From the NCBI RefSeq assembly GCF_018687495.1, contig NZ_CP061293.1:992001-1056000 (forward strand): a DNA stretch of 64,000 nt. The letters are read 5' to 3'. This DNA comes from Polynucleobacter sp. MWH-Svant-W18. GTDB taxonomy: Bacteria > Pseudomonadota > Gammaproteobacteria > Burkholderiales > Burkholderiaceae. The position numbers were made by a program, and so were the translations under genes. A model generated the notes under the pieces. That model had not been told where the DNA came from and searched no databases. It saw only the letters and a program-made list of their open reading frames with translations. Each line of letters opens with the position of its first letter. Position 1 is the stretch's first letter. Shown here piece after piece: positions 1,127 through 3,792 of the stretch.

Positions 1127-1175
1127 GCACTCAGATGACGCGAATAGCCGCGATAGCTTATGGCGTCATCTGTGC
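1127..1175. terminator. inverted repeat between convergent genes, possible bidirectional terminator
   Basis: Perfect 10-base arms CAGATGACGC (1132-1141) and GCGTCATCTG (1163-1172), extendable at the outer ends with a two-base bulge, enclose a 21-base loop. The right arm overlaps the last codons of leuA. There is no U-tract on either side, so intrinsic termination is uncertain; the stem could instead protect 3' ends of both transcripts. Confidence 0.4.
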
Positions 1176-2705
1176 ATTGAGCTTGGCTTGACTAGGATCA
1201 TGCAATTTATTTAAGGCTGATAAATAGGCCTTAGCCGATGCAGCAATGATGTCAGGATCTGTGCCAACGCCATTCACAATGCGGCCTCCTTTTGCTAAAC
1301 GCACTGTCACTTCACCTTGGGACTGCGTACCAGAGGTAATCGCGTTTACGGAATAGAGCAACTGCTCTGCCCCACTTTTGGCGATCTCTTCAATAGCATT
1401 CAAGCTTGCGTCTACTGGGCCATTACCTTCTGCTTCTGAGCTGACTTCTGTATTGCCCATCCGGAAAGTGACCCGTGACTTTGGACGCTCACCTGTTTCT
1501 GAGTGCTGACTCAAAGAAATGAAGTGGTAATGCTCACCCTCTTCTGCCGCTGCAGAATCAGACATGATGGCGATGATGTCTTCATCAAAGATTTCGGCTT
1601 TTTGATCTGCCAAGGCCTTGAATCTTGCAAATGCTTCATTTAACTCCGCCTCTGCCTCAACCGTAATACCCAACTCATGTAAACGTTGCTTGAAAGCATT
1701 ACGCCCAGACAATTTACCCAAGACGATTTTGTTTGTAGACCAACCTACATCTTCAGCGCGCATAATTTCATAGGTTTCGCGGTTCTTCAAAATACCATCT
1801 TGATGGATGCCGGAAGCATGGGCAAAGGCATTAGCACCAACAACAGCCTTATTCGGTTGCACCACAAAGCCGGTTATTTGAGAAACCAATTTGGATGCTG
1901 GAACTATCTGCGTAGCGTCAATTCCGCAGACCATATCAAAATAATCCTTACGGGTACGCAAGGACATCACAATCTCTTCCAAGGCAGTGTTTCCAGCTCT
2001 TTCACCTAAACCGTTAATGGTGCACTCGATTTGACGAGCCCCGCCAATCTTCACGCCGGCCAAAGAATTTGCAACAGCCATACCTAAATCATTATGACAA
2101 TGAACCGACCAAATGGCTTTATCAGAATTTGGCACGCTAGTCCGCAAAGTTTTTATGAACTCACCATACAACTCAGGCGTTGCATAGCCCACAGTGTCCG
2201 GAATATTGATCGTAGTGGCACCCTCCTTGATGACAGCTTCGACTACTCTGCATAAAAAATCCATCTCCGAGCGATAGCCATCTTCTGCAGAGAACTCAAT
2301 ATCTTCCGCCAAATTTCTGGCAAACCGAATGGAGCGCTTAGCTTGCTCCAAAACATCCTCTGGAGACATGCGCAATTTGACAGCCATATGCAAAGGACTA
2401 GTTGCCAAGAAAGCATGAATCCGTTTTGACTTAGCTGCCTTTAAGGCATCAGAGGCACGCGTAATATCTTTTTCATTTGCTCTGGCCAAAGAACACACAA
2501 TCGAATCCTTCACTGCAGCAGCCACAGCAGAGATTGCCTGAAAATCACCTTCAGAGCTTGCCGCAAAGCCGGCTTCGATGACATCAACCTTAAGGCGCTC
2601 TAATTGGCGCGCAATGCGAACCTTCTCGTCTTTGGTCATTGAGGCGCCAGGGGACTGCTCGCCATCACGCAAGGTGGTATCAAAAATGATTACTTTATCG
2701 CTCAT
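1158..2705 (-). CDS. leuA: 2-isopropylmalate synthase
   Basis: First committed enzyme of leucine synthesis: condenses acetyl-CoA with 2-oxoisovalerate. The 515-residue length fits the long bacterial LeuA with a C-terminal leucine-binding regulatory domain. The catalytic [12 protein letters not shown] motif is near residue 10, the metal-binding H-x-H (VHCHNDLGM) near residue 203, and [13 protein letters not shown] follows. Two ATGs are adjacent (2708 and 2705); the GGAGAG ribosome site sits only two bases before the first, so the second is preferred. The gene follows ilvBHC-psd-pssA on the same strand, but a 222-base leader with an attenuator separates it from pssA, implying its own leucine control. 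Confidence 0.97.
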
Positions 2706-2755
2706 CATTACTCTCCGGTTCTAACTACAGTCTTTACTAATATTCAACTTGAATC

Positions 2756-2787
2756 TAAAAACAAAAAACCCCAGCAAATTGCTGGGG
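2756..2787 (-). terminator. leuA attenuator terminator
   Basis: On the minus strand CCCCAGCAATTTGCTGGGG (2769-2787) forms a stem of seven to nine pairs and is followed directly by a T-rich run (2756-2768), a textbook intrinsic terminator. It lies after the leucine-rich leader peptide and before leuA, where it can only act as an attenuator. A segment inside the leader peptide (2842-2847, UGGGGC in RNA) can pair with GCCCCA (2783-2788) and so compete with the terminator stem. Confidence 0.85.
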
Positions 2788-2800
2788 CTGGTATGTGGTG

Positions 2801-2828
2801 GTTAATGAATTATCTAGATTTCATCAAC
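2801..2828 (-). promoter_or_regulatory. leuA leader stem-loop
   Basis: In the leader RNA, GUUGAUGAA (2820-2828) can pair with UUCAUUAAC (2801-2809) over nine positions with one G-U pair, closing a ten-base loop. It starts immediately after the leader-peptide stop codon and precedes the terminator. It may be the pause hairpin or part of the ribosome-dependent switch; this is inference from pairing alone. Confidence 0.5.
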
Positions 2829-2903
2829 TCAGGCCTTACCCGCCCCAAGCTTTAGGCTTAGTGCTAGTAGAAGAAGGCTGGTTAAGGAAAAGTGCATCAA
2901 CAT
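2829..2903 (-). CDS. leuL: leucine-rich leader peptide of leuA
   Basis: A 24-codon reading frame beginning ATG-TTG-ATG and ending TGA at 2829-2831. Nine of its 24 residues are leucine, with the dense stretch L-L-L-L-A-L-S-L-K-L using four CTA codons among the nine. It lies between pssA and leuA and is followed by a stem-loop and an intrinsic terminator, the arrangement of classical ribosome-mediated attenuators of leucine operons. Stalling at the leucine codons would free 2842-2847 to pair with the terminator 5' arm, allowing leuA transcription. No strong ribosome site is visible; translation could start at the ATG at 2903 or 2897. Identity rests on composition and architecture. Confidence 0.8.
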   Translation of the reverse strand: MLMHFSLTSLLLLALSLKLGAGKA

Positions 2904-2931
2904 GGAATTAATATACCCGAAAATTCCAAAA

Positions 2932-3792
2932 TTAGCTAAAACGCTTACCGCTGAGTCGTTCCCAGCCCCAAATCACATAGCCGGAGATGGAATACACCAC
3001 AAATAGACCAAAAAGGGTCAACGGCGGGTTTGAGGAGATCAAAACAAAAGTGAGGATCATTAAAACCATGACGCCAAACGGTACGCGATAGCGCACATCC
3101 AATGCTTTGCCGCTATAGAAACGGGCATTGGAGACCATGGTCAAGCCAGCGTAGACGGCTATGAAAAAGGTAACCCAAGGAATTGCTGTATCTCGGACGG
3201 GAATCTTGTTATCGTCAGCCAACCATATGAATCCGGCCATCAATGCGCCTGCGGCTGGACTAGGTAAGCCCTGAAAAAACTTTTTATCAACAACACCAGT
3301 ATTTACATTGAAGCGGGCAAGCCTGAGTGCTGCGCCTGCGCAATAGGTAAAAGCAGCCAACCAACCCCACTTACCTAAATCTTTGAGAGCCCACTCATAT
3401 GCAACGAGTGCTGGTGCCACTCCAAAGGACACCATATCCGCCAATGAGTCATATTGCTCACCAAATGCACTTTGGGTATTGGTCATGCGTGCTACACGGC
3501 CATCCATACCATCCAATACTAGAGACGCAAAGATTGCAATTGCCGCCACCTGAAACTGATCATTCATCGCGTTAACGATGGCAAAAAAACCACTAAAAAG
3601 TGCTGCAGTCGTAAACGCATTAGGCAGCAAGTAAATGCCTTTACCACGTGGACGAGGCTTATCGTGCACCTCTTCTACTTCATAATCAACACCATCCCCT
3701 AAAGCGTCTACCCAATCACCCTCAGACTTCAAAATGCGTTTATGTGAGAGGCGACTGCGATCTATACGGCCACGACGACGAAATGTACTCAA
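2932..3792 (-). CDS. pssA: CDP-diacylglycerol-serine O-phosphatidyltransferase
   Basis: Makes phosphatidylserine from CDP-diacylglycerol and serine in the inner membrane; the next gene, psd, decarboxylates the product to phosphatidylethanolamine. The CDP-alcohol phosphotransferase signature is complete: D94-GMD-G98-RVAR, then G111, D115 and D119. Several hydrophobic segments follow to the C-terminus. About 50 hydrophilic residues precede the first membrane segment, a longer N-terminus than many family members. Only 26 bases separate it from psd, consistent with co-transcription. Confidence 0.95.
   Translation of the reverse strand: MSTFRRRGRIDRSRLSHKRILKSEGDWVDALGDGVDYEVEEVHDKPRPRGKGIYLLPNAFTTAALFSGFFAIVNAMNDQFQVAAIAIFASLVLDGMDGRVARMTNTQSAFGEQYDSLADMVSFGVAPALVAYEWALKDLGKWGWLAAFTYCAGAALRLARFNVNTGVVDKKFFQGLPSPAAGALMAGFIWLADDNKIPVRDTAIPWVTFFIAVYAGLTMVSNARFYSGKALDVRYRVPFGVMVLMILTFVLISSNPPLTLFGLFVVYSISGYVIWGWERLSGKRFS

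Follow-up and report, generated by a model that had tools for sequence, protein, structure and literature searches.

A conserved leucine-rich leader and putative ribosome-mediated attenuator upstream of leuA in Polynucleobacter

The DNA analysed here (the window) is a stretch of 64,000 nucleotides from Polynucleobacter sp. MWH-Svant-W18, a small freshwater bacterium. The genome forms one contig of 1.77 Mb, and its LeuA shows 96% identity to a Polynucleobacter record. On its minus strand leuA lies after pssA in one run of genes, as judged from the list of open reading frames (Table 1). The upstream gene is presumably pssA, a name taken from the first-pass annotation of this DNA and in agreement with our own reading of the frames. 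A short reading frame lies between the two genes, beginning with an ATG (2903-2901) 29 nt beyond the pssA stop codon and ending with a TGA (2831-2829). It has 24 codons, nine of them for leucine and four of these CTA (codons 12, 13, 15 and 17), exactly as the first-pass annotation had described it on the minus strand. The leuA gene itself has a ribosome-binding site, GGAGAG, at 2716-2711 on the same strand.

Table 1. Features of the pssA-leuA region (window coordinates)
Feature	Position	Strand	Basis and remarks
pssA	2932..3792	-	ORF list; upstream gene, last of the ilv-psd-pssA run
-10-like hexamer TATATT	2910..2915	-	Sequence; 6 nt before leader ATG
Leader peptide ORF, MLMHFSLTSLLLLALSLKLGAGKA	2829..2903	-	Sequence reading; stop codon included
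Regulatory codons CTT CTT CTA CTA (codons 10-13)	2865..2876	-	Sequence and stall scan; predicted stall site
1:2 hairpin CTAAGC-CTAAA-GCTTGG	2845..2861	-	Folding and sequence; inside leader; about -4.8 kcal/mol
Segment 2, antiterminator 5′ strand, TGGGGCGGGTA	2837..2847	-	Pairing analysis; inside leader ORF
Post-stop stem, GTTGATGA / TCATTAAC	2801..2828	-	Spacer between segments 2 and 3
Segment 3, antiterminator 3′ strand and terminator 5′ arm, TACCAGCCCCA	2783..2793	-	Pairing analysis
Intrinsic terminator, AGCCCCAGCA-ATT-TGCTGGGGTT, then T tract	2757..2789	-	Terminator search; 60/60 congeneric loci
leuA, 2-isopropylmalate synthase	1158..2708	-	Sequence and ORF list; regulated gene (predicted)

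The first-pass annotation had also proposed a stem directly after the leader stop codon, an intrinsic terminator, and pairing of 2847-2842 inside the leader with 2788-2783 in the terminator 5′ arm. The stem is present, GTTGATGA (2828-2821) pairing with TCATTAAC (2808-2801), and so is the terminator, with its hairpin at 2789-2767 followed by the T tract; one terminator was found, compared with 0.3 expected in shuffled sequences. The pairing exists and is longer than had been claimed, joining 2847-2837 to 2793-2783 by 10 pairs with one mismatch (2841/2789), and 5 nt separate the end of segment 2 from the stop codon. Two further elements were absent from the earlier description: the -10-like hexamer, and a 1:2 hairpin with arms at 2861-2856 and 2850-2845, which overlaps segment 2 at 2847-2845. 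Folding of the region 2705-2931 as RNA gave a z of only -1.95. Because pssA ends so close to the leader, any transcript reading through from ilv-psd-pssA would also meet this terminator and may be ended by it.

At the leucine frequency of the window, the probability of at least nine leucines in 23 codons is 1.7e-4. Among the 50 window genes of at least 150 amino acids, three are preceded by a leucine-cluster ORF behind a -10-like hexamer, and leuA is the only one that combines these with a terminator. Conservation across the genus is, on the sequences compared, a stronger argument against chance than these statistics. Sixty leuA loci with readable upstream DNA were obtained from 61 Polynucleobacter genomes; the remaining genome (G028), which gave a weak paralogue and no true leuA match, was left out. 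All 60 loci carry a single candidate leader of 22-29 codons with 6-11 leucines, together with a terminator of the form CCCCAG..CTGGGG, the rule used for this count presupposing at least five leucines and a -10-like hexamer, so that both are conditions of the count and not outcomes of it. A similar rule was satisfied by 3.5 of 60 loci on average under dinucleotide shuffling. CTA makes up 175 of the 515 leader leucine codons, compared with 10.2% of the leucine codons in the 50 window genes, the leaders being related and not independent of one another. Across 34 leaders, five different leucine codons occupy the first position of the LLLLALSL run and leucine is always kept, a synonymous drift that is as expected for selection on leucine, to judge from these codons.

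The peptide pattern LLLLALSLxLGAGK is kept in most of the genus and the peptide is hydrophobic, as might be the case if the leader product were a small membrane peptide with a function of its own, the RNA structure being secondary. This is very unlikely: the C-terminal sequence shifts with the RNA segments from clade to clade (LGAGKA, LGQNLGSVHA or LTGARDRVC), leucine richness alone being kept, and seven leader peptides matched no family in Pfam or NCBIfam. The post-stop stem is missing in the congeneric clade with LGQNLGSVHA leaders. In one congener (locus L084:3096-3305, genome G023), the leader has lost one base downstream of the leucine run, which changes the frame and brings a different stop codon into use, nearer to the terminator; this deletion is a natural test of whether the position of the stop matters.

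Base pairs of the 2:3 helix were counted with the sequences anchored on the GGGG core in the leader and the CCCC core in the terminator. The helix in register kept 8.78 of 10 pairs on average, and after a shift of one to three bases the value was 5.07 at most. For the 19 distinct pairs of segment 2 and segment 3, the mean was 9.05 of 12, compared with 8.33 when partners were shuffled, and none of 2000 shuffles reached 9.05. Compensatory changes turn C-G into T-A at 11 loci and A-T into G-C at nine; as most of them occur in two groups, the LGQNLGSVHA clade and L136, the independent events are few. The 1:2 hairpin retains all six pairs at 55 of the 60 loci, with letters changed on both sides (AAGC:GCTT, AGGT:ACCT and GAGC:GCTC). 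Judged from the sequences, both the antiterminator and the 1:2 helix keep their pairing through compensatory changes. On a MAFFT alignment, no two-sided change was found in the antiterminator, and at six of its nine pairs 5 to 7 of the 24 rows were unpaired. We attribute this to a register slip of one base in one clade, visible on inspection, because of which two-sided changes do not appear. A covariance model built on that alignment inherited the slip, and both it and the MAFFT-based covariation were set aside in favour of the anchored counts, so the compensatory evidence rests on those counts and on few independent events. The parts of the element, their conservation and these compensatory changes can all be read from the DNA itself. 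The earlier expectation that the leucine codons and stems would be conserved in relatives was borne out, since leader, terminator and 2:3 pairing occur throughout the genus.

With its ordinary, strong stem, the terminator could in principle do nothing more than end the ilv-psd-pssA transcript, the leucine-rich frame having arisen by chance and a leuA promoter lying downstream of the terminator. We regard this as scarcely credible, since all 60 loci have the leucine-rich frame, with synonymous drift in its run, and the 2:3 complementarity is conserved in register.

The hexamer preceding the leader is TATATT at 48 of the 60 congeneric loci, TATAGT at 11 and TATGAT at one, and it is separated from the ATG by 6 nt in 50 loci, 7 in nine and 8 in one. 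The usual distance between a -10 element and the start of transcription would place the start at the leader ATG, and the predicted start in the window is the A at 2903 or a base no more than 1-2 nt away. Shine-Dalgarno-like motifs precede five of the 60 leaders, compared with 6.1% in shuffled sequences, and 56 of the 58 testable leuA starts, two loci being left out. Because the -10-like hexamer lies 6 nt before the ATG and a ribosome-binding site is lacking there, the leader is predicted to be leaderless and to have its own promoter. A -35 element matching 5 of 6 positions was found at 11 of the 60 loci, all outside the clade of the window; none in that clade is good, and the promoter in the window may be weak or need help. 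An extended -10 (TGn), first suspected in basal clades, was counted at 0 of 60 loci and dropped.

We also examined 149 leuA upstream regions from other Burkholderiales, of which three were too short, leaving 146, by a rule that does not presuppose a -10 element. A leucine-cluster frame with a -10 element at 5-9 nt was present at 68 of these loci, compared with 0.1 in shuffled sequences, and a leucine-cluster frame with a Shine-Dalgarno motif at two, compared with 0.7. These counts bear on the alternative that the same attenuator is not leaderless, its RNA arising mainly by read-through from ilv-psd-pssA, its translation by reinitiation after pssA, and TATATT by chance. Such an origin is suggested by the pssA stop codon only 29 nt upstream, by the position of leuA after pssA in one gene run and by the lack of a good -35 element in the window's clade, but we consider it unlikely in view of the -10-like hexamer at 6-8 nt in all 60 congeneric loci, the like spacing in so many other Burkholderiales and the leaders without Shine-Dalgarno motifs. 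The conserved -10 directly before the leader ATG also strengthens the first-pass proposal that leuA is under private control within the longer gene array.

Switching was simulated by removing the RNA up to 12 nt past the A-site codon of a ribosome and folding the remainder. With the ribosome on the leucine run and the nascent RNA ending just short of the terminator 3′ arm, the antiterminator exceeded 0.5 in 59 of 60 loci; with the ribosome at the leader stop codon, the terminator exceeded 0.9 in all 60. In a scan of stall positions along the window leader, segment 2 was free up to codon 15 and covered by the ribosome from codon 16 on, and most antiterminator was obtained at codons 10-13. When a ribosome was stalled on the full-length RNA, the equilibrium favoured the terminator (median 0.92 over loci); in the window, with the second leucine of the run in the A site, it stood at 0.96 and the antiterminator at 0.04. 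The first-pass suggestion that a stalled ribosome lets the antiterminator form and leuA be expressed thus agrees with the folding of nascent RNA, but not with the equilibrium of the complete transcript. Thermodynamic switching at equilibrium is unsupported and was rejected. As the terminator wins at equilibrium, the modelling implies that the switch must be kinetic and depend on timing, that is, be co-transcriptional. In the window the calculated energies of the antiterminator (-16.6 kcal/mol) and terminator (-16.4 kcal/mol) are nearly equal, which in this model is a balanced switch. The 1:2 (protector) hairpin is present but weak, and is not dominant in nascent RNA. Without any ribosome, the antiterminator exceeded 0.5 in the nascent RNA of 49 of 60 loci, and the weak hairpin may not guard against read-through when the leader is untranslated.

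Most probably the element controls leuA by ribosome-mediated transcription attenuation and senses charged tRNA-Leu, with translation starting on a bare 5′ AUG. The start of transcription, leaderless translation, stalling, termination and the response to leucine are inferred from the sequence and folding as follows. A promoter that overlaps the pssA end would set the transcription start on, or beside, the A of the leader ATG, and a ribosome would start on the bare 5′ AUG with no Shine-Dalgarno sequence. When leucine is plentiful, the ribosome would reach the stop codon and cover segment 2, so that the 3:4 terminator would form and transcription would end before leuA. When leucine is short, the ribosome would stall on the regulatory codons, holding the 1:2 hairpin open; the free segment 2 would then pair with segment 3 before the terminator 3′ arm is made, and RNA polymerase would enter leuA.

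In enterobacteria the leu attenuator (Leu_leader) has a leucine-rich leader peptide and alternative 1:2, 2:3 and 3:4 pairings before leuA. The trpL attenuator of rhizobia combines a leaderless leader peptide with an intrinsic terminator. Vitreschak and colleagues reportedly made a comparative study of proteobacterial attenuators in 2004. The Polynucleobacter locus has the parts of a ribosome-mediated attenuator, namely a leucine-rich leader ORF, an intrinsic terminator, an antiterminator, mutually exclusive with the terminator, that a ribosome at the stop codon would cover, and a 1:2 hairpin. With the enterobacterial element it shares the leucine-rich leader and alternative pairings before leuA, but there is no match in sequence or structure (RF00512, 16.3 bits where the gathering score is 50, below membership), the Polynucleobacter leader is predicted to be leaderless, and its leuA follows pssA. 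Rfam scans gave only tRNAs at gathering score in the window and nothing relevant at 20 related loci. The rhizobial trpL attenuator also resembles it in its intrinsic terminator and in the leaderless peptide predicted here, but is a Trp element and belongs to alphaproteobacteria. As described in PMC11857589, transcription of the ilvBNC attenuator (IlvL) of Corynebacterium glutamicum starts one nucleotide from the leader start codon; it likewise has a leaderless leader peptide (predicted in our case), a terminator and an antiterminator, but its leader is an Ile/Val/Leu leader, acts on ilvB, and is of unrelated, actinobacterial sequence. The actinobacterial LEU element, as described in PMC1262725, also places a leader ORF with leucine codons before leuA, but uses a pseudoknot and pairing of the leucine run with the leuA Shine-Dalgarno box, whereas Polynucleobacter has an intrinsic terminator. 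No leucine leader before betaproteobacterial leuA is described in the available portions of PMC2965389, PMC1262725, PMC5688073, PMC4603805, PMC10272879 and PMC11857589; the supplement of PMC5688073 holds 82 short 5′ UTRs of Burkholderia cenocepacia, among which an entry for leuA is possible. The leuA leader probably represents ribosome-mediated attenuation distinct from the Rfam Leu_leader family, a known kind of switch that looks uncatalogued in betaproteobacteria.

When its own genome was searched with an RNA model of the element, there was one strong match (148.4 bits), the next scoring 28.2 bits. Those of the next-best matches that were inspected as candidate second copies proved to be ordinary terminators. 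The leuC gene of this genome was located and the model gave no match there. An attenuator before ilvB was also considered; the upstream bases gave no notable Rfam match and no leucine-rich frame by eye.

Under an earlier rule, leaders were called before leuA at 48 of the 67 testable loci (of 69) among the named loci, which are the nearest LeuA relatives, and at 6 of 20 loci in a family sample. An order sample of 60 loci, hand-picked from 121 matching genomes with mostly one to three per family, gave 33 of 59 testable, with at least one leader in 25 of 44 families. Terminator-like hairpins, called by a relaxed rule, accompany 35 of the 48 named leaders, three of the six in the family sample and seven of the 33 in the order sample, several of these seven being doubtful by eye. 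Some leaders with no called terminator (e.g. L036) have a GC hairpin and a short T run, and the terminator-less count is therefore an upper bound. An ending in LLLRPAR or a like sequence, then a stop codon and a C-rich tract, is frequent among terminator-less leaders. In L017, L023, L042, L051, L055, L066, L162, L163, L173, L190 and others, the peptide ends in LLVR or LLLRPAR, the stop region is GCGC-rich, and the C-rich tract that comes next often contains ACAATTCG. Such leaders are candidates for a Rho-dependent or other output, Rho being only a guess. At six of the 59 order-sample loci, from six families (L165, L179, L197, L201, L212 and L220), the leuA frame extends upstream by about 80-100 codons with a Cro-like pattern, FGG..AAIYKWR; one of two extensions tested gave a weak match to Pfam P22_Cro (E 0.009), and a leucine leader was found in none of the six.

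It is quite possible, and we suggest it tentatively, that in Burkholderiales leuA has long and commonly been controlled by a leaderless leucine leader, with two outputs. One would be the intrinsic terminator, in Polynucleobacter, Comamonadaceae and some other genera; the other, in many further families, would be the terminator-less form, with a peptide often ending in LLLRPAR-stop and a C-rich tract that is perhaps a Rho loading site covered by the leucine-stalled ribosome. Some further lineages would lack the leader and have a LeuA with an in-frame Cro-like N-terminal extension.

The locus provides a concrete and widely conserved candidate leucine attenuator for betaproteobacteria, where we found no described one. 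Leaderless translation and ribosome-mediated attenuation, usually studied apart, are joined here in one predicted system. If transcription and translation begin at the same nucleotide, their coupling would be set without a ribosome-binding site, and the kinetics of attenuation would therefore be directly testable. With the terminator-less relatives, an intrinsic output and a possibly Rho-dependent one can be compared in nature for the same leader.
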